Shown piece by piece: positions 2,691-30,924 of a stretch of DNA of 32,137 bases. How positions within the stretch are numbered: the first letter of the stretch is position 1; each line of letters begins with the position of its first letter. This stretch comes from Paludibacteraceae bacterium (lineage in GTDB: Bacteria; Bacteroidota; Bacteroidia; Bacteroidales; Paludibacteraceae): positions 1 to 32,137 of the forward strand of contig JAFTXV010000002.1 in NCBI GenBank assembly GCA_017461505.1, in the 5' to 3' direction. Both the position numbers and the translations under genes were made by a program. The notes below the pieces were generated by a model. The model was not told the DNA's origin. It saw only the letters and a list, made by a program, of their open reading frames with translations, and ran no database searches.

Positions 2691-5600
2691 ATGCAAATTG
2701 CTGATTTAGAACATCTGATGGAGCAACATCCCGAAGTGGATGTATTAGCACAACAACTGAGCAAGAAAGGTAACAGCCATTTCTTGCTCTCTGGTTTGTA
2801 TGCCTCTGCCCGCGGGATGATTCTAGCAGCGTTGCATTCGCGCCTCAAGCAAAAAGGAAGTGCGCCCACGATGCTCATCGTGATGGATAATGCCGACGAT
2901 GCGCAGTATATGTACGCCGACATTAAGACCTTGCTGCAGACACAAGATATATATTACTTCCCCAATAGCCATCGTCGCCGTCAGGGCAAAGATGAGGCCA
3001 TGGCTGTGCAGCGCACGGAGGTGATGAGCGCATTGCTGAATGCAATGCACAGTTTAGAGGACGCTTCGCTACAGGACGGCAGCAAAACTGCCTACAGTTT
3101 AAAGGCGAGACCAATCATCGTAACTTACCCTGAGGCATTGGCGGAAAGTGTGCCTCAACCACAGTCGTTGCAAGGCAAGACCATCACCCTATCGGTGGGA
3201 GAGGAAATAGCCATCTCGCAGCTCATAGAAATGCTTTTAGAGTTGGATTTTAAGCGGGTGGATTTTGTGTATGAGCCCGGACAATTTGCTGTACGTGGAG
3301 GAATAGTGGATGTATATAGTTATGCATGCGATATTCCTGTGCGAATAGATTTCTTCGGTGATGAGATAGATAGTATTCGTGAGTTTGAGTTAGAAACACA
3401 ACTATCTCAAAATAAGGTAGATACGATAAGCATTGTAGCGTCGAGTGCAGATGAACAAGCTATGACCGACATAACGGCGTATTTGCCCCAGAAAACGCTA
3501 TGGATAAGCAATGATTTTGGGCTAGCAAGCTACAAAATCAAGAGTGCTATCACCGAATTGGATGCTAGCATTTTGACTCAGGCGATGGAAGAGGCAACCA
3601 CCATAGAGTTGAACCAAAAATCTACCTATCCAAGTCACAATCTGGTGGTATTTGATACCCTTCCCCAACCTACCTTCAATAAAAATTTCGACCTGTTGAT
3701 AGACGACCTGCAGCAACGCACCAAGGACGGTTATCGCGTCTATATATTGGCAGATCAGGTGAAACAAACCGACCGACTGAAAGCCATCTTTGATGACAAA
3801 GAGTCGGGGATAGAGTTTGTGGCGGTAAATCATGCTTTGCACGAGGGATTCATCGACCATGGGGCGAAGATATGTTGCTATACCGACCATCAGATATTCG
3901 AGCGTTACCACCGCGTGACACTCCGTTCGGAGAATGCGCGTCGTGGCAAAGCTATCATCACCCTGAAGGAGATCAACCAGTTGCAGGTGGGCGATTATGT
4001 GGTGCATGTGGATCATGGTATTGGTCAGTTTGCGGGATTGGTGACGACGAACTTCAACGGCCGTCCACAGGAGACTATCAAACTGACATACAAAGGTGGG
4101 GATACGCTATTTGTGAGTATCCACAATCTGCATCGCATATCCAAATATAAAGGTCGCGAAGGTAGCGAACCTACCATATCTCGCTTAGGGTCAGGCGCTT
4201 GGGAACGCATGAAGGAGCGTACGAAAGATAAAGTCAAGGATATTGCGCGCGACTTGATTCAACTCTATGCTACTCGCAAACAGCAGAAGGGCTTTGCCTA
4301 TACGCCAGATGGCTATATGCAGCATGAGCTGGAGGCATCGTTCCTCTACGAAGATACGCCCGATCAGGCGAAAGCGACATTGGACATCAAGCACGACATG
4401 GAAAGTGCCATGCCGATGGACAGATTAGTATGCGGCGATGTGGGCTTTGGTAAGACCGAAGTGGCCATGCGTGCCGCTTTCAAAGCTGCAACAGACGGCA
4501 AGCAAGTGGCTGTATTGGTGCCCACGACCGTATTGGCATTGCAACACTACAATACCTTCAAGGAGCGTTTCCGCGATTTCCCTGTACGCGTGGAGTACGT
4601 TAGCCGTGCAAAAACAGGAAAACAGCTAAAAGAACTATTAGAGGATCTCAAGGCAGGCAAGATAGATATACTGATTGGTACACACAAACTGGTTGGTAAA
4701 CAAGTAGTTTGGAAAGATTTGGGTTTGCTCATCATAGACGAGGAGCAGAAGTTTGGTGTAGCCGTGAAAGAGAAACTCAAAGCCCTGCGCACCAATGTGG
4801 ATGTGCTGACACTGACCGCTACCCCTATCCCACGTACCTTGCAGTTCTCGCTACTAGGAGCACGCGACTTGAGCGTGATCAATACGCCTCCACCTAATCG
4901 CTATCCTGTTCAGACAGAGATGATTACACTGGATGACGAGGATATCATGAAGGAGGCAATCCAACTGGAGATGCAGCGCAACGGACAGATATACGTGGTG
5001 TGCAACCGCATTGAGATGTTGCCACGTATTGAGAGTCGTATCCGTCGTTTGGTACCCGAAGCACGCTGTATTATTGCTCATGGTCAGATGCCACCTGGCG
5101 AGATGGAAGAGGCACTGGAGGCATTTATCAACTATGATTATGATATCCTTATCTCAACGACTATCATCGAGTCGGGCGTGGATATTAGTAATGTGAATAC
5201 CATCATCATTCATGCGGCGCAGAACTATGGTTTATCAGATTTGCACCAATTGCGTGGTCGCGTAGGACGATCAAATCGCAAGGCGTATTGCTATTTGGTG
5301 ACACCCGACAGAGAGTTGCTGACGAGCGATGCACGCCGCAGATTGGATGCGCTGACTACCTTTGCTGAATTGGGTGCAGGTTTTCAATTGGCGATGCAAG
5401 ATTTGGATATTCGTGGTGCGGGCAATATGTTGGGCTCAGAACAAAGTGGTTTTATTGCCGACTTGGGCTACGACACCTATCAACGCATATTGGCAGAAGC
5501 CGTAGAAGAAATTCGAGAGGAGCTATCCCTAGCCTCATCGCCTGATAGCCTCTTTGCCTCATCGCCTAATAGAAATAAATACTGGTGCTCCGACTGCCAA

Positions 5601-21775: not shown

Positions 21776-22438
21776 ATGAAAAGAGTATTCTCTACTATAT
21801 TATTGCTCTTAGTACTTTCTTTTTCTTATCCCATTTTCTCTCAGCAAAGAAATGTAGTAATCAATACGAGTTCTGTTGATCGCACTGTTATTACTACTGA
21901 TCCTGATGTAGATATATGGACGCAACTAGAACAAGAGCGTATTGCTGCTGAAAGAGCAGAACAAGAGCGTATTGCTGCTGAAAGAGCTGAACAAGCGCGT
22001 ATTGCTGCTGAAAGAGCTGAACAAGCACGTATTGCTGCTGAGAATGCAGAGCAAGAGCGTATTGCTGCTGAGAGAGTTGAACAAGAGCGTATTGCTGCTG
22101 AGAATGCAGAGCAAGCACATATTGCAGATAAGAAAGGTACACAACCAATTGCTATCACCAATGATTTCCAAACTAAATGCGCTCAGATACACAAACAAAT
22201 AATAAAATTATCTGAACATTACTATGGAGGTCAGGTGCTCAAAAAATATAATAACATATATAAATCTATGCCCCAAACGGAAGAGAATATGCTCAACTTG
22301 CAAAAGATTCAGTATGTTGTTATTTCATATTTAAATAGCAAAGGAAGTGCATATCCTACTCTTGAAAAAGAACTCAAGAATGCTGCTTCTGTAGAAGAAG
22401 AAATAGCATTCTTTTTGTCTTATTATAAAGAGCAATAG
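21776..22438 (+). CDS. Exported protein with a 10-residue coiled-coil repeat
   Basis: 220 aa. A signal peptide ([20 protein letters not shown], cut near residue 22) is followed by a short Thr/Val segment and a run of near-identical decapeptides of the type [10 protein letters not shown] (about residues 53-122), strongly charged and predicted to be a coiled coil or single alpha helix. The C-terminal 100 residues are helical and unrecognised. The repeat is encoded by exact 30-bp DNA units, so copy number may vary between strains. It sits 30 nt after the lipoprotein gene, with a strong terminator after it. Periplasmic or surface location is inferred. Confidence 0.8.
21931..22140 (+). repeat. 30-bp coding tandem repeat, about 7 units
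   Basis: Units begin at 21931, 21961, 21991, 22021, 22051, 22081 and a decayed one at 22111, each with the core CGTATTGCTGCTG. The period is exactly 30 bp, so changes in copy number keep the frame. Confidence 0.95.
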
Positions 22439-25008: not shown

Positions 25009-25210
25009 ATGTTTAGTTCACTTTGTTCACGTTATTGGTTCGTTTCACTCACGAAAGTGGTTCGCTGCGTTCACGAAAATGATTCGCGTTGCTCATGAAA
25101 GTGGTTCGTTTCACTCACGAAAATGATTCGCTTCGCTTATGTACGCTTTAGCCACTTTCGCTTTAGCCATCTACGTCGCCATAGGCGACCACTTTTCGTG
25201 CCTTTGGCAC
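25009..25210 (-). repeat. Hairpin array A (purD-folD spacer)
   Basis: The spacer is filled by two kinds of unit. On the plus strand, six tandem 22-bp units begin at 25017, 25039, 25061, 25083, 25105 and 25127 (core TTCGCT...CACGAAA); each can form a 4-5 bp mini-hairpin. From 25145 the array switches to palindromic words joined by 7-8 nt linkers: GCTTTAGC twice, GTCGCC-ATA-GGCGAC (25175-25189), linker CACTTTTC, GTGCC-TTT-GGCAC (25198-25210). The last word ends on the base next to the purD stop codon. The two halves are roughly complementary to each other. Confidence 0.9.
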
Positions 25211-26476
25211 TCAAAGTGCCCAATGCGCAATGTCTTTGCGATAGAAGAGGTTGTCGCAGTGGATTTTCTCGATCTCCTTATATACTTTAGCTTGTGCCTC
25301 GGCGATGTCTTTGCCTGTAGCAATGCACATCATCACGCGACCGCCATTGGTCTTGAGCACACCGTTGTCGTTCTTGGTACCCATGTGGAATACAGGACCG
25401 TCGAAGAGCTCAACTCCTTCAATAACAGCGCCTTTCGCATAGTCGCCTGGGTAGCCTTTAGAGGCAAGTACGACACCGATGGTGGCTTCGTTGCGCCAAC
25501 TCATCGCCTTATCGCCTTGTTGCCTCATCGCCTCATCGCCCGTAGCAATGCCGTAGAACACATCGTAGGCATCAGACTCGAGGAGAGGCAATACGACCTC
25601 GGTCTCTGGGTCACCAAAGCGAGCATTAAACTCGATGACCTTCACACCTTGAGCGGTCTTCATCAGTCCGCCATAGAGTACGCCTGTGAGTGGCAAGCCC
25701 TCTTGGCACATGCCTTTGGCTACGGCTTCGAGGACATATTTGCGGGCAAATGCCTCATCTTCTTCGGTCACGAATGGCAGCGGAGTGTATGCACCCATAC
25801 CGCCGGTGTTAGGACCTTCGTCGTTGTCGAAAGCGCGCTTGTGGTCTTGCGAGAGAGGCATTGGATAGACATTCTCGCCATTCACAAAGCACATAAAGGA
25901 GAACTCTGGACCTTCCAAAAACTCCTCTATCACCACTTTGCCTTTGCCAAATGCCTCATTGCAGAGCATATCTTGCAGCGCAGCATCCGCTTCTTCAAGA
26001 GTGTTGGCAATGACCACACCCTTGCCTGCTGCCAATCCGTCGTATTTGAGTACGATAGGCAGACTGCCTGCTTTGACGTATGCCAATGCCTCGTTGTAGT
26101 CGCTAAAGGATTGATAACCAGCAGTTGGCACATTGTATTTGTCCATAATAATCTTGGCAAACTCCTTGCTCGACTCTATTTGTGTAGCCGCTTTGGTATG
26201 ACCAAAGATAGGCATACCTTCCGCACGGAAAGCATCTACCACACCTGCTGCCAATGCTGCCTCTGGACCTACTACGGTGAGATCGACTTCCGTCTCTTTG
26301 GCAAAGAGCAATAAGCCCTCTACATCGGTGTCTTTGATAGCTACGCACTCAGCGAGTTGAGCGATACCTGCATTACCTGGAGCGCAGTAGATCTTCTCCA
26401 CTTGTGGGCTACGTGAAAGGGCATACACAATTGCATGCTCTCTTCCGCCTCCACCTATAACTAATACTTTTTTCAT
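25211..26476 (-). CDS. purD: Phosphoribosylamine-glycine ligase
   Basis: 421 aa from ATG 26476. GARS, an ATP-grasp enzyme, makes GAR from phosphoribosylamine, glycine and ATP. It has the N-terminal KKVLVIGGGGREHA, ATP-grasp KYDGLAAGKGV, and the Mg/ATP site RFGDPETEVVLPLL. A TTG two codons upstream (26482) overlaps no useful signal; ATG 26476, 6 nt after the purH stop, is the natural start. Oddity: residues 313-325 (GDEAMRQQGDKAM) are encoded by a tandem GCCTCATCG-type repeat that shares a 12-mer with mfd. Its stop codon directly abuts hairpin array A. Confidence 0.97.
   Translation of the reverse strand: MKKVLVIGGGGREHAIVYALSRSPQVEKIYCAPGNAGIAQLAECVAIKDTDVEGLLLFAKETEVDLTVVGPEAALAAGVVDAFRAEGMPIFGHTKAATQIESSKEFAKIIMDKYNVPTAGYQSFSDYNEALAYVKAGSLPIVLKYDGLAAGKGVVIANTLEEADAALQDMLCNEAFGKGKVVIEEFLEGPEFSFMCFVNGENVYPMPLSQDHKRAFDNDEGPNTGGMGAYTPLPFVTEEDEAFARKYVLEAVAKGMCQEGLPLTGVLYGGLMKTAQGVKVIEFNARFGDPETEVVLPLLESDAYDVFYGIATGDEAMRQQGDKAMSWRNEATIGVVLASKGYPGDYAKGAVIEGVELFDGPVFHMGTKNDNGVLKTNGGRVMMCIATGKDIAEAQAKVYKEIEKIHCDNLFYRKDIAHWAL
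25501..25540 (-). repeat. In-frame 9-bp repeat inside purD
   Basis: Degenerate 9-bp units with the core TCATCGCCT span this stretch and encode the two GD(E/K)AM pentapeptides. The exact 12-mer at 25522-25533 is also present in mfd. Confidence 0.75.
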
Positions 26477-26482
26477 TTGCAA

Positions 26483-28018
26483 TTAATGTTTGAAGTGGCG
26501 TGTGCCGGTCATGAGCATGCAGATGCCGAGTTCGTCGGCTTTGACAATGCAGTCGTTGTCGCGGATACTGCCGCCAGGTTGAACGATAGCGGTTACACCA
26601 TATTGTGCAGCCAATGCTACGGTATCGTCGAATGGCAAAAAGCCGTCAGAAGCGAGGATAAGACCTTCAGTCACACCTGCTGCGTGCGCTTGCTTCATAG
26701 CAATCTCCGCACTACCTACGCGGTTCATCTGACCTGCACCTACGCCCAGCGTTTGACCATTCTTTACCACTACTATCGCATTGGATTTCACGTGCTTAAC
26801 GATATTCCAACCGAATTGCATGTCTGCCAATGTTGCTGCATCAGGTTGTACCTTAGTAGCGCACATGTCAGCAGTGATCGTCTCGATTTGGGTGTCGAGG
26901 TGTTGTACGAGCAAACCGCCGTTCACGCTCACATATTGGTCGATGGCTTCGCTGCTTGGAGTCATGTCCACTTGGATAACACGGAGGTTCTTCTTGGTAG
27001 CGAAGATCTCCATTGCCTCATCGGTGAAGTCTGGAGCAATCACAATCTCAAGGAAGATAGGCTTCATGCCGAGGGCAATCTCCTTGGTGATAGTGCGGTT
27101 GCAGATCACTATACCGCCGTAGATGCTTACGGTATCTGCTTCGTATGCCTTTTGCCATGCCTCTTCGATAGTCTCAGCCACAGCAGCACCGCAAGGGTTC
27201 ATGTGCTTGAGGGCTACGCAGAAAGGTTGTTGGAAGTCGCGTGCGATATTGAGTGCAGCGTTGGCGTCTTGGATATTGTTGTAGGACATCTCCTTGCCTT
27301 GGAGTTGTTTGCCACTGGCAAGTGAGAATGGGATAGCTTTAGTAGAAGCATAGAACTTAGCCGATTGGTGAGGGTTCTCGCCATAACGAAGACCTTGCTT
27401 GAGGTCGAACTCAAGGAAGAGTTTCTCGTTGAGGCCTGCTTTCTCGCGCATGTAAGTAGCTATGCAGCAGTCGTATTGCGCAGTATGGGTGTATGCCTTA
27501 GCAGAGAGTTGGAGACGGGTCTCAAGCGTGGTGTTACCTGTTGCGTTGATCTCAGCGAGGATAGTGTCGTAGTCCGCAGGATCGCAAACGACAGTCACAT
27601 CGTTGTAGTTCTTCGCTGCAGAGCGCAACATAGATGGGCCACCTATATCAATCTTCTCGATGGCTTCTGCCATAGTAGTACCCTCTTTGGCGATGGTCTC
27701 GCGGAATGGATAGAGGTTCACGCACACGAGGTCGATGAACTCGATGCCGTTCTCCTGCAATGCTTGGAGGTGAGATGGCTCATCGCGGCGAGCGAGAAGA
27801 CCGCCGTGCACCTTTGGGTGGAGGGTCTTAACGCGACCGTCACAGATCTCTGGGAAACCTGTTACATCGCTGATGCCGATAGTTTTAACACCTGAATCTT
27901 CGAGGAGTTTTTGTGTACCGCCTGTGGCGATAATCTCCCAACCTGCTGTTTGCAGGCCCTTTACAAAATCAACTAATCCTGTTTTGTCGCTTACGCTGAC
28001 TAATGCTCTTTTGTTCAT
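26483..28018 (-). CDS. purH: Bifunctional AICAR transformylase / IMP cyclohydrolase
   Basis: 511 aa from ATG 28018. It catalyses the last two steps of IMP synthesis. The N-terminal IMP cyclohydrolase (MGS-like) domain starts RALVSVSDKTGL with GGTQKLLEDSG. The AICAR-transformylase domain has the active-site KHMNPCG with K271/H272. A GTG three codons upstream (28027) would add MNK-type residues but lies in the repeat leader; ATG 28018 is preferred. It is followed after 6 nt by purD. The upstream spacer is hairpin array C, beyond which lies a four-helix-bundle gene instead of another pur gene. Confidence 0.97.
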   Translation of the reverse strand: MNKRALVSVSDKTGLVDFVKGLQTAGWEIIATGGTQKLLEDSGVKTIGISDVTGFPEICDGRVKTLHPKVHGGLLARRDEPSHLQALQENGIEFIDLVCVNLYPFRETIAKEGTTMAEAIEKIDIGGPSMLRSAAKNYNDVTVVCDPADYDTILAEINATGNTTLETRLQLSAKAYTHTAQYDCCIATYMREKAGLNEKLFLEFDLKQGLRYGENPHQSAKFYASTKAIPFSLASGKQLQGKEMSYNNIQDANAALNIARDFQQPFCVALKHMNPCGAAVAETIEEAWQKAYEADTVSIYGGIVICNRTITKEIALGMKPIFLEIVIAPDFTDEAMEIFATKKNLRVIQVDMTPSSEAIDQYVSVNGGLLVQHLDTQIETITADMCATKVQPDAATLADMQFGWNIVKHVKSNAIVVVKNGQTLGVGAGQMNRVGSAEIAMKQAHAAGVTEGLILASDGFLPFDDTVALAAQYGVTAIVQPGGSIRDNDCIVKADELGICMLMTGTRHFKH

Positions 28019-28116
28019 TTTATTCACGTTTATGGTTCGCTTCGCTCACGAATCATGGCTCATACGAGCGAAAATGGCTCGCCTTCGGCTCACGAATGGT
28101 GGCGTTGCGTATATTT
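28019..28116 (-). repeat. Hairpin array C (IVP gene-purH spacer)
   Basis: Shorter array. From the purH start it reads TTCACGTTT, then a unit TTCGCTTCGCTCACGAA, the palindromic word GCTC-ATAC-GAGC, a GAAAATG linker, a GCTCGCCTTCGGCTC word and CACGAATGGTGG. The last 20 nt before the IVP stop are AT-rich and not repeat-like. Confidence 0.8.
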
Positions 28117-28485
28117 TTATTTAGATTGCAATTTTTTGATGAGTGTTTCAATTTTACACTCTATTTCAATAATCTTATCTCGTAACTCTTTAGAACTTTC
28201 AGCAGATAAATAGTTTATATCCTCTGCTATGTATAACATGTTGCGAACTTCGCCACATGATCCATATGCAATATTCAAGAAATTAATAAACTGCTTGTTA
28301 TCCTTTGCGAATTTATTTCTTTGAAAACCCTCAGAAATATTATTCATTATTGAAACAGCAGCACGCTGAATTTGGTCGCGAAAACCGAAATCATTGTTGC
28401 TTCTGAATAACAGATATATTCTCCGAACCAGTTCTCTAGATAATTGCCAGATAACTAATTCTTCAAAGTTATATACCATGCTCAT
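28117..28485 (-). CDS. Four-helix-bundle protein of the 23S rRNA-IVP family (TIGR02436)
   Basis: 122 aa. The family pattern is clear: FEELVIWQLSRELVRRIY, then FGFRDQIQRAAVSIMNNISEGFQR, then FINFLNIAYGSCGEVRNMLYIA and a final long helix. Members are encoded inside 23S rRNA intervening sequences of some bacteria, and a related fold (Avd) accompanies diversity-generating reverse transcriptases; these are basic, pentameric, nucleic-acid-associated proteins. Here there is no rRNA or reverse transcriptase nearby. The gene is wedged between purM and purH, flanked on both sides by hairpin arrays B and C. A and B carry an identical 23-nt leader next to folD and this gene. That suggests it moved with, or acts on, the repeats. 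Function is unproven. Confidence 0.88.
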   Translation of the reverse strand: MSMVYNFEELVIWQLSRELVRRIYLLFRSNNDFGFRDQIQRAAVSIMNNISEGFQRNKFAKDNKQFINFLNIAYGSCGEVRNMLYIAEDINYLSAESSKELRDKIIEIECKIETLIKKLQSK

Positions 28486-28725
28486 AATCCTGTTTTTTAG
28501 TTCACTTTGTTCACGTTAGTAGTTCGCTTTGCTCACGAATGGTGGCTGCGCGAAAGTAGTTCGCTTTGCTCACGAATGGTGGCTGCGCGAAAGTGGTTCG
28601 CTTTGCTCACGAATGGTGGTTTCGCGTTATTTACGTCAAAGACCATTATTCGCTTTAGCCATTGTTCGTGCCTTTGGCACCACTTTTCGTCGCTATTTGG
28701 CGACCATCGTTCGTTCCGCAGGAAC
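28486..28725 (-). repeat. Hairpin array B (purM-IVP gene spacer)
   Basis: Units on the plus strand begin at 28501, 28523, 28560 and 28597 (steps 22, 37, 37 = 22+15). The right half is made of palindromic words: GCTTTAGC (28652), GTGCC-TTT-GGCAC (28668-28680), linker CACTTTTC, GTCGC-TATTTG-GCGAC (28689-28704), linker CATCGTTC, GTTCC-GCA-GGAAC (28713-28725). The final word touches the purM stop codon. The 23 nt at 28496-28518 are identical to 25012-25034 in array A. Confidence 0.9.
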
Positions 28726-29751
28726 TTAGAGGATCTCGTTTTCTCCTTCGATAACTTTACCAATCACTTGGGCTTTGTCGCCGTGCTGAGCGAGGATAGC
28801 GATGGCTTTCTCTGCGTCTGCTGCTGGCATAGCAATCACCATACCAATACCCATGTTGAAGATGTTGAACATCTCGCGGTGAGGGATATTGCCCCACTTC
28901 TCCAAGCATTGGAACACTGGCAAAATCTCCCATGAACCCTCAGTCACGCTGAAGCCCTGACCATCCTTCAAGATACGAGGGATATTCTCATCAAAGCCAC
29001 CGCCTGTGATATGTGCTACGCCGTGCACATCGCAGTTGCGGATTACCTCCAGCACTTGCTTCACATAGATACGAGTTGGAGTCAGCAACACTTCGCCGAG
29101 TGGTTTCTCGGCATTGAGTTCTGGATAAACGGTGTGGAGGTCAAGCCCTGCATCGCTAACCACCTTGCGCACAAGACTGAAACCATTGCTATGTACGCCC
29201 GAAGAAGAGATACCCACGAGCACATCGCCTACGGCCACTTTGCTGCCGTCGATGAGTTGAGATTTCTCTACCACGCCAGTGGTGTAACCTGCAATGTCGT
29301 ATTCGCCATCACCATACATACCTGGCATCTCAGCTGTCTCGCCACCTACGAGGGCGCAACCTGCTTGGCGGCAACCTTCTGCCACACCTGCCACAATGGC
29401 CTCTACTTTCTCAGGGATGTTATGACCAATAGCCACATAATCAAGGAAGATAAGTGGTTCTGCACCTTGTGCAAGCACATCGTTCACGCACATCGCTACA
29501 GCATCAATACCGATGGTATCGTGCTTGTCCATGGTGAAAGCGAGTTTGAGTTTGGTTCCTACGCCATCAGTGCCGCTCACGAGGACAGGCTCTTTGATAT
29601 TGAGTGCCGAGAGGTCGAACATTCCACCAAACGAACCGATATTGCCCATTGAGCCAAAGCGGTTGGTACTTTTTACGTGTGATTTAATACGACTTACTAC
29701 TTCGTATCCGGCTTCGAGGTTCACGCCGGCTGCCTCATAATGTTGTGCCAT
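28726..29751 (-). CDS. purM: Phosphoribosylformylglycinamidine cyclo-ligase (AIR synthase)
   Basis: 341 aa. It uses ATP to close the imidazole ring of AIR. Motifs are [40 protein letters not shown] and [15 protein letters not shown], in the order of the AIR-synthase N- and C-terminal domains. It is the first pur gene of the minus-strand cluster. There is no TAnnTTTG box in the 66-nt gap behind fic, so it may be transcribed from further upstream, or its promoter may be masked by the repeat array there. Confidence 0.97.
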
Positions 29752-29841
29752 AATATTTTAGTTACATTTCATTTCACGTTAGTGGCTCCTAAGGGAGCGT
29801 TGATGGTTCGCTGCGCTTCACGAAAGGTGGCTGCGCGTTAG
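29752..29841 (-). repeat. Hairpin array D (fic-purM junction)
   Basis: TTCACGTTA (29773-29781), the palindromic word GCTCC-TAAG-GGAGC (29785-29798), linker GTTGATGG, a TTCGCTGCGCTTCACGAA unit and GTGGCTGCGCGTTA. It is the same family as arrays A-C. It runs into the 3' end of the fic gene and encodes its last residues. Confidence 0.8.
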
Positions 29842-30924
29842 TACTTCCCAATGTCCGCCTTTGGATGGGCCTACCCATTGAATATTGTAATACTGTCGTA
29901 ATGCATCTATATCGCGTCGTATGCTGCGTATTGTGATACCATGAATAGTAGCCATTTTATTGGCAGATATGGTATTGTCCGTTGTTATGAGATGCAAAAT
30001 TTCCTTTTGTCTATCGGTTAGTTTTTGGGTGACATTTTGGGTGACATTTTGGGTGACATTGCTTTGTTTTTCGCCTAAATATGGTTGCTCTTTCCATTCG
30101 GCAGATGGATTGATGTGCAAGTATCTGTTGCGTAGGTCCCATTGCTCACCTAATAGCAGATTGCGGAAGAAGCGTTCCAAATATATTGGCGAGTAATCAA
30201 TGCCTTTGACTGCGTTCTTGTAGTTGGCTCTTACTAAGGCATTGCGGAAGTACCACGAATACTTTGCAAACAAATCGTTATCTACATTGAAACCTATATG
30301 ACGCAGATACAGGATGGTAAATACTGCCGTAGTGCGTGTATTGCCCTCTCCGAAAGGATGAATTTGCCATAATCCCGAAACGAATTGTGCTATGTGCACT
30401 ACTTGTTGCTCCAGTGATAGGTTCTTATAACTGAAATTACGCTCTTGCTCTATCTCAAACTCCAATGCGCGGTATAGGTCTTCCCAGTTGAGATAATTGA
30501 CTGTATCAGAGTCCAATACCCATTCTTTCTTTGTGATATCGTAACGGCGTATCTCGCCTGCGTGCTTTAGTACTCCGTCAAATATCCTTCGATGCAAAGC
30601 AACAAATCCTTTCGCACTAAAGTCCAGCGATACTGAAGATAGAATCTTTGTGATGTTTGCCGATGCTTTATCTGCCTCACATTGGTCATCATCGATTGGC
30701 TCGCGTGATGCTTTGGATTGATAATAGGTCTTTATCAAATGGCGTGCCTCGTCAATGTCAATCTTGCCCTCTATATGCTTTTTTGCTGTTTCTTTCAGGT
30801 AGTCAGATGTTTGCAATCCATCCACAGCCTGCAAACCAATTGCCGTCCGCCAAATGGCAGCTCGTTCTTGTTGATTGGGCTCACCCTGACGGATGTATTC
30901 ATCAAACTCCAAAAAATCAGTCAT
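29818..30924 (-). CDS. Fic-domain protein with winged-helix C terminus
   Basis: 368 aa. The Fic core motif HPFGEGNTRT is at 189-198 (catalytic H189), so AMP- or other nucleotidyl-transfer to a target protein is expected. Near the N terminus TAKKHIEGKIDIDEA (46-60) resembles the inhibitory helix of Fic antitoxins (E-G pair at 52-53), suggesting built-in autoinhibition, although the usual Ser/Thr four residues earlier is Lys. A tandem NVTQNVTQNVTQ (289-300, three exact 12-bp units) links to a C-terminal winged helix (about 303-350, RQKEILHLITTDNTISANKM... SIRRDIDALRQ). The last residues TRSHLS are encoded inside hairpin array D. It has its own promoter; it could be a regulator or a defence/stress toxin. 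Confidence 0.9.
   Translation of the reverse strand: MTDFLEFDEYIRQGEPNQQERAAIWRTAIGLQAVDGLQTSDYLKETAKKHIEGKIDIDEARHLIKTYYQSKASREPIDDDQCEADKASANITKILSSVSLDFSAKGFVALHRRIFDGVLKHAGEIRRYDITKKEWVLDSDTVNYLNWEDLYRALEFEIEQERNFSYKNLSLEQQVVHIAQFVSGLWQIHPFGEGNTRTTAVFTILYLRHIGFNVDNDLFAKYSWYFRNALVRANYKNAVKGIDYSPIYLERFFRNLLLGEQWDLRNRYLHINPSAEWKEQPYLGEKQSNVTQNVTQNVTQKLTDRQKEILHLITTDNTISANKMATIHGITIRSIRRDIDALRQYYNIQWVGPSKGGHWEVLTRSHLS
30025..30060 (-). repeat. 12-bp coding repeat x3 in fic
   Basis: Three identical units TTGGGTGACATT encode the tetrapeptide NVTQ three times between the Fic core and the winged helix. Copy-number change would be in frame. Confidence 0.9.

Follow-up and report, generated by a model that had tools for sequence, protein, structure and literature searches.

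Two-armed arrays of palindromic mini-hairpins at gene junctions of a Paludibacteraceae purine gene cluster

Four junctions of a purine gene cluster of a Paludibacteraceae bacterium were found to hold arrays of short palindromic modules, on a stretch of 32,137 nucleotides (GenBank assembly GCA_017461505.1, contig JAFTXV010000002.1, positions 1 to 32,137 of the forward strand) that is referred to below as the window. Judging from sequence comparison, it is suggested with moderate confidence that these arrays are a mobile, non-coding, modular family of palindromes, similar to bacterial interspersed mosaic elements (BIMEs) and with a two-armed design of its own, that is tolerated or used at cistron junctions. 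Both modules and whole arrays differ between close relatives and recur at several sites of a genome; most arrays occupy the stretch from a stop codon to the following start codon where the two genes are co-directional, one orientation being the prevalent one, and the stems of their triloop hairpins are kept while the loops drift.

The window is contig 13 of a source genome of 1.74 Mb (22 contigs, 82% complete). On its minus strand the genes follow one another in the order fic, purM, an open reading frame (ORF) of the 23S_rRNA_IVP family, purH, purD and folD, with four junctions of this fic-to-folD run being the array spacers, labelled W1 to W4 (L-numbers denote fetched loci and G-numbers genomes). 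These arrays and their modules are the following:

25009 to 25210, minus strand: array W1, the purD-folD spacer, a full two-armed array
25017 to 25143, minus strand: arm B of W1, 22-bp units of a GTGAGCGAAGCGAAC-type mini-hairpin and a CCACTTTCG linker
25175 to 25189, minus strand: arm A hairpin of W1, GTCGCC-TAT-GGCGAC
25198 to 25210, minus strand: first module of W1, GTGCC-AAA-GGCAC, immediately following the stop codon of purD
25206 to 25220, minus strand: palindrome GGCACT-TTG-AGTGCC across the purD stop codon
28019 to 28116, minus strand: array W2, between the IVP-family ORF and purH, read here as arm B modules only
28058 to 28069, minus strand: hairpin of W2, GCTC-GTAT-GAGC
28117 to 28485, minus strand: 23S_rRNA_IVP-family (PF05635) ORF, between W2 and W3
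28486 to 28725, minus strand: array W3, between purM and the IVP-family ORF, two-armed
28518 to 28626, minus strand: arm B of W3, 37-bp tandem units
28713 to 28725, minus strand: first module of W3, GTTCC-TGC-GGAAC, adjoining the stop codon of purM
29752 to 29841, minus strand: array W4, between fic and purM, read here as arm B type
29785 to 29798, minus strand: hairpin of W4, GCTCC-CTTA-GGAGC, in which the loop alone varies in L070 and L072

A first-pass annotation had assigned tandem units and palindromes of differing stems to these four spacers, and its coordinates and description were found to be correct. The 22-bp step is exact (25017, 25039, 25061, 25083, 25105 and 25127), as is the 37-bp step (28518, 28555 and 28592), the palindromic words that it named are present as described, and the stop codons of purD and purM are immediately adjacent to the hairpins at 25198-25210 and 28713-28725, respectively. 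The fourth stretch does hold an array and is not a pure spacer, as it begins within the fic ORF, whose stop codon is at 29818; W4 thus overlaps the 3' end of fic, and the array is common to L070 and L072, with minor differences. The annotation had described the plus strand, while the genes lie on the minus strand, and the two-part layout and the complementarity of the linkers of the two arms became visible only once the arrays were read along transcription and compared with other arrays. The complementary linkers, along with the orientation rule, the gain and loss at individual sites and the linker dialects described below, had been overlooked.

In the direction of the coding strand, a full array begins at the stop codon, continues through arm A and arm B and ends with a weaker, AT-richer last hairpin just ahead of the start codon. 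Arm A, on the 5' side, consists of perfect hairpins with mostly three-base loops and many stems (for example GTGCC-AAA-GGCAC, GTCGCC-TAT-GGCGAC, GCAGC-AAA-GCTGC and GCACC-TAC-GGTGC), joined by linker A (CGAAAGTGG). Arm B, on the 3' side, consists of GTGAGCGAAGCGAAC-type mini-hairpins joined by linker B (CCACTTTCG), with the core GCGAAGC, a sequence known to form an extraordinarily stable DNA mini-hairpin. Arm B has a consensus, unlike arm A, where the stems differ: 60 distinct triloop words of at least 5 bp were found in 44 stretches that include flanking sequence, so that some words come from the flanks (loci L052 and L057 were dropped, having no match to the survey seed introduced below). 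A C-G pair closes 47 of these 60 words, compared with 7 of 35 elsewhere in the window.

Reading of the arrays yielded eleven linker dialects, with a likely twelfth (GTTCAACAT type) at the purA-carA junction, and in those examined linker B is the reverse complement of linker A, exactly or nearly so. Some genomes contain two dialects, namely i and ii in the present genome, i and iii in G014, and vi and xi in G085. Complementarity was compared among 12 arrays of 11 dialects (one per dialect and two for i, with representatives and arm boundaries picked by hand) by counting the arm A bases in 7-mers that have a reverse complement in arm B. The mean was 27 within an array's own pair of arms and 3.3 across dialects (130 cells, the largest being 21), and the observed sum was not reached once in 100,000 permutations of the labels of arm B. 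Exceptions were dialect vi, with a value of 0 in its own cell (linkers one base apart), dialect vii, with a value of 8, and dialect iv, which scored 21 against v and 14 against itself. This complementarity is a matter of structure or of inverted origin, and alone cannot separate selection for pairing from concerted copying. It is fairly unlikely, if conceivable, that the linkers are recognition tags of a trans-acting copying machine that writes palindromes de novo. Changes of dialect would then represent co-evolution with the machine, with one or two dialects per genome that are complementary in both arms, while the stems would be almost free and sometimes templated on the last codons of the host gene across its stop.

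When up to 3 mismatches were allowed, nine occurrences of the motif TTCGCTTYGCTCACGAA were counted in the window, where 0.23 would be expected. Across the genome the core motif gave 16 matches at up to 1 mismatch and 47 at up to 3, with the reversed control giving 0 and 10, respectively. A chance origin of the pattern was ruled out by these motif counts against expectation and the reversed control, together with the linker permutations. Thirteen intergenic arrays were examined in this genome, of which one, at L063, lies within approximately 250 bp of the end of contig C18, consistent with arrays breaking assemblies. Related arrays are found throughout the genus as well. In a survey of 178 genomes of the genus, a 14-mer seed with up to 1 mismatch was found in 157, a figure that is an upper bound because many seed matches are coincidences inside coding sequence; 37 of 113 seed clusters in fetched loci lie inside an ORF. 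Array words were also observed to be read in frame as C-terminal tails or after apparent signal peptides (L059 at 4158-4392, L180, L187, L181, L193, L227, L229 and L236). Across 295 genomes of the order, an exact 15-mer was found in 19, including the present one, with no control match. The 20 order-wide loci inspected were of mixed settings (tRNA neighbourhoods, larger inverted structures and others), with only L262, L274, L263 and perhaps L250 resembling related arrays. L254, L255 and L257, which come from other families of the order, hold the same mini-hairpin as part of a larger inverted structure; this structure is found again in other genomes and presumably resembles integron attC sites. 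A separate conserved repeat of approximately 150 bp with CCGTGAGCGAAGCG, mostly also with CACCTTATTAAAG near its end, was observed in L159, L160, L164, L170 and L217 and lies outside the array family.

Hairpin content was compared with dinucleotide shuffles, and the hairpin richness of the four window spacers, noted in the first-pass annotation, turned out to be just moderately above them when each was taken individually. For perfect-hairpin content, p was 0.014 for 25009-25210, 0.052 for 28019-28116, 0.02 for 28486-28725 and 0.27 for 29752-29841, and ordinary 200-bp segments of the window (n = 289) have on average 12 paired bases with a maximum of 33, some of them thereby equalling the arrays, which have 5-33. 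Singly, p < 0.05 was reached in 10 of the 13 arrays, with W2, W4 and C18x lying above this value. Pooled over the 13 arrays, 29 triloop hairpins were present against 8.6 expected, the top of 500 shuffles being 15. Mini-hairpin pairs also exceeded shuffles: at three positions, 27, 27 and 26 of 47 non-seed words pair, counts reached by 1, 2 and 12 of 2000 shuffles in a word set that holds chance matches.

The pattern was found to recur both in this genome and in its relatives, with stem pairing kept in orthologous spacers and accompanied by compensatory changes. Examples of the latter are GCCC-TTC-GGGC to GTCC-TTC-GGAC (L064/L240), GTGAACAAAGTGAAC to GTGAGTGAAACGAAC (C9a/L207), and ATTAAC-GAA-GTTAAT against ATGAACAAAGTGAAT (L052/L185). 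Over 11 pairs of orthologous arrays, two of which share one sequence, loops had changed at 14 of 145 positions and stems at 11 of 394 (p = 0.0019); hairpins overlapping alignment gaps were dropped uncounted, and 8 of the 11 stem changes lie in an alternative hairpin reading of arm B.

The orientation of the arrays mostly follows that of the genes. Intergenic seed clusters between co-directional genes numbered 47 in sense against 6 in antisense, with 4 found between convergent and 6 between divergent genes. This count draws on the 113 clusters of fetched loci, with window arrays left out and with simple ORF calling, and includes orthologous sites of related strains as well as a few clusters of another repeat or of other families. 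When long-range complementarity was required (42 clusters with a long-range reverse-complement 9-mer), the figures were 21 sense against 4 antisense. In the present genome all 13 arrays are in sense, one of them, at a contig end, being judged mainly from the downstream gene.

Comparison of orthologous junctions revealed differences in array content between close relatives. The purD-folD junction holds an array in the window and in L069, where it is 59 bp shorter (readable as 44 + 15), while L071, L072 and L076 have no array and possess gaps of 28 to 35 bp (stop codon included) with short AT-rich repeats. The PurD and FolD proteins of these four loci are 93-99% identical to those of the window. 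Differences in module content between orthologous arrays include 22, 31 and 59 bp, and near-identical whole arrays occur at three sites each in G085 and in G075 (L242 twice and L243; L225 twice and L226). At the purA-carA spacer (L309-L316), four unrelated contents were found in eight genomes whose PurA-like proteins are 95.7-100% identical: the present array in one genome, the GTTCAACAT array in two, GGTTAAA repeats in three and TTGAATTAAGAATT repeats in two. The last 300 bases of the upstream gene are 85-91% identical to those of this genome and the spacers are unrelated (a neighbouring carA was confirmed with tblastn in 7 of the 8 genomes, and the names purA and carA were read from translated ends). 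Such a replacement of the spacer between the same two genes by unrelated repeats contrasts with the usual view of bacterial spacer DNA as short and passive.

The purM-purH junction (window 28019-28725; L069-L074 and L076) was observed to be a hot spot, which, across relatives whose PurH is 95-99% identical, is either empty or occupied by an ORF of the IVP family together with arrays, by a fic gene, or by hairpin words next to an unidentified ORF. The IVP-family ORF was not found by tblastn in the seven close-relative loci that hold purM and purH (L069-L074 and L076). Among the best 80 of 174, the closest PurH loci belong to metagenome-assembled genomes of Paludibacteraceae or Bacteroidales, up to 99% identical and mostly from herbivore guts. 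Tandem repeats of other kinds are present inside ORFs of the window, namely a 30-bp repeat of 6.3 copies (21928-22125) and a 12-bp repeat, TTTTGGGTGACA, of 3.2 copies inside the fic ORF (30023-30060).

Array differences of module size also bear on the possibility that the arrays are by-products left where replication slips and switches template at short palindromes, having neither element-like mobility nor a function. Of 31 arrays, 4 have a stem of at least 6 bp across the stop codon, where swapping the array starts among genes gives 0.64 (p = 0.0015), and the stop-spanning palindrome of purA accompanies three silent differences from G110 and G081, both of which are in keeping with such an origin. 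Two of these three differences are however also present in G025, which is without the present array, and the mean stop-spanning stem does not differ from that of swapped starts (p = 0.18). At purD, the left arm of the palindrome at 25206-25220 is purD coding sequence and is present too in the array-free L071 and L072. As three of the four cases had been noticed before the test, the apparent link between arrays and the end of the host gene is only suggestive. With the same modules found at unlinked sites, whole arrays copied and one dialect common to several sites, slippage is considered quite unlikely to be the origin of the arrays.

Relatives of the repetitive extragenic palindromic (REP)-associated tyrosine transposase (RAYT) were examined as candidate drivers. 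A RAYT-like protein with a C-terminal extension gave matches in 127 of the 178 genus genomes (E up to 0.001, some partial), and in the loci read, RAYT-like Y1/HUH proteins of approximately 330-420 aa were found at L279 (625-1734), L280 (1050-2300) and L306. The ORF at L306 belongs to the present genome and has an HUH-type motif, and the NCBIfam model REP_Tyr_transpos matches the RAYT-like protein below the model cut-off. The Y1_Tnp (PF01797) model has no match in this genome, and PF01797 showed no association with the repeats, being present in 9 of 28 repeat-rich and 59 of 150 other genomes. The 14-nt word GGCAGCGGAGCTGC was found both in one hairpin that lies upstream of the L306 ORF and in arm A modules belonging to two arrays of this genome. 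Several RAYT-like genes have palindromic repeats of a different kind, particular to the gene, on their flanks (L292, L296, L299, L300 and L307).

That the arrays are true REP/BIME elements mobilised by these transposase relatives would agree with the frequency of the protein in the genus, its sub-cut-off REP_Tyr_transpos match and the shared word at L306, and the linker types that contain GTGG or GTAG are similar to REP feet. Such an origin is nonetheless unlikely, as by hand count the protein is no commoner in genomes with at least 7 seeds (18 of 28) than in others (109 of 150), and in G101, with 19 seeds, none was detected (the genome is 84% complete). No seed was found in 27 stretches around RAYT-like genes (some with the same gene twice, one IS200-type), linker words of the 7 dialects checked occurred once in five and twice in one of these stretches, and the foot is not conserved between dialects. 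An IS200/RAYT transposase was accordingly rejected as the driver, its presence not tracking the arrays and no arrays lying beside the examined genes, with the exception of the one shared hairpin word.

For a mobile palindromic family, the differences between arrays of relatives would reflect mobility, and the single-stranded form, be it DNA during copying or RNA in the transcript, would be expected to fold into local mini-hairpins with arm-to-arm pairing of the linkers. This fold may be what is copied or maintained, with insertion being tolerated, and possibly used, as intercistronic mRNA structure in an orientation that leaves the downstream start open. Several observations weigh against this proposal. 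The loops are the fast-changing class and the stems change no more slowly than the rest (11 of 394 positions, against 44 of 1358 outside hairpins). The first-pass suggestion of selection for palindromes, or of a mechanism making them, in which stems vary and structure is kept, is supported only in part: recurrence, the excess of loop over stem changes and compensatory changes speak for it, and the similar rate of change of stems and of positions outside hairpins does not. No enzyme could be tied to the arrays from the abundance and flanks of REP-transposase relatives, and no target-site duplication was seen by eye between filled and empty purD-folD and purA-carA sites, where the whole spacer differs. 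Folding is no worse on the antisense strand, which has the lower energy in 6 of 13 arrays and an equal one in 1, and on the sense strand G-U mismatches number 12 against 6 A-C, which by our own estimate is not significant. RNA folding favours no single defined long-range structure, the predicted path from stop to start being longer than in shuffles (36 against 26). Some arrays are antisense or lie between convergent genes, and a strict RNA role is therefore not general. RNA-only selection was unsupported either by G-U excess or by the comparison of sense and antisense folding, and bridging of stop and start codons by an RNA fold was likewise not supported by the length of the predicted path.

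The same data bear on a host-selected intercistronic RNA element, a branched hairpin that stabilises or insulates the junction or tags it for cleavage, for instance by RNase III, with mobility not being its primary property. Orientation that tracks transcription, the stop-to-start position, loops that change more than stems and RNA folding z-scores of -1.6 to -4.8 for the 13 arrays would all fit such an element, as would the finding that in all 13 arrays the last 18 nt ahead of the start codon are less paired than the array body (array spacers alone were folded, with no controls). It is given a minor share of likelihood, as the presence of arrays at the same junction in close relatives is erratic and whole arrays are copied, in addition to the antisense or convergent arrays, the equal folding of the antisense strand and the lack of a clear G-U excess. 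Intrinsic terminators made of hairpin clusters are highly improbable, even though a terminator role has been proposed for such clusters where they lie near stop codons (PMC8355165). The arrays lie inside a purine gene cluster and close to the next start codon, and within the four of the window no terminator-like site (GC hairpin with a T run) was found on the coding strand, with two on the opposite strand. At the gathering score of Rfam the sole match in the window was a tRNA, and the arrays match no known RNA family.

Among the papers listed by searches of open-licence PMC literature, no description of the present array family was seen. Some copies of the palindromic elements of Rickettsia lie in frame inside coding sequence, and in-frame copies occur likewise here (L059, L181, L193, L227 and L236), although the present arrays are mainly intercistronic and have a multi-hairpin array as their unit. 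The organelle genomes of Volvox are reportedly rich in short palindromic repeats and so are alike in the abundance of short palindromes, in a different lineage. According to PMC3733652, GTAG- and CGTC-tagged palindromic repeats share with the arrays short loops, a mostly unidirectional or convergent intergenic placement and some intragenic units. The definition of REPs given there is that of a conserved terminal tetranucleotide, GTAG or, in the other superfamily, CGTC, whereas the arrays are without a single tetranucleotide foot, the foot and linker differing among the 11 dialects and GTAG or GTGG being found in some only. PMC12306157 defines REPs by highly similar copies with one consensus motif, while the stems of arm A differ from one another. 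With respect to RAYT-associated REP/BIME elements, neither flanks of the same palindrome nor a correlation of abundance was found here, with one arm A word upstream of the gene in this genome.

The first-pass statement that no named element has this design was too strong because REP/BIME mosaics are closely analogous. According to PMC2817692, BIME/REP mosaics are likewise extragenic and combine short palindromic modules in both orientations, with a module number that varies by strain and with compensatory stem changes. Unlike these, the present arrays have stems that vary between modules and linkers that are conserved and dialect-specific, they separate the two orientations into two arms instead of alternating them, and the stretches examined around transposase genes contained no array. 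In 2010 the origin of REP and BIME elements was called unknown (PMC2817692). In the arrays described here the structural rule of complementary arms and variable stems outlasts a change of linker, which provides a natural covariation experiment on how small palindromic elements originate, spread and reach fixation at cistron junctions.

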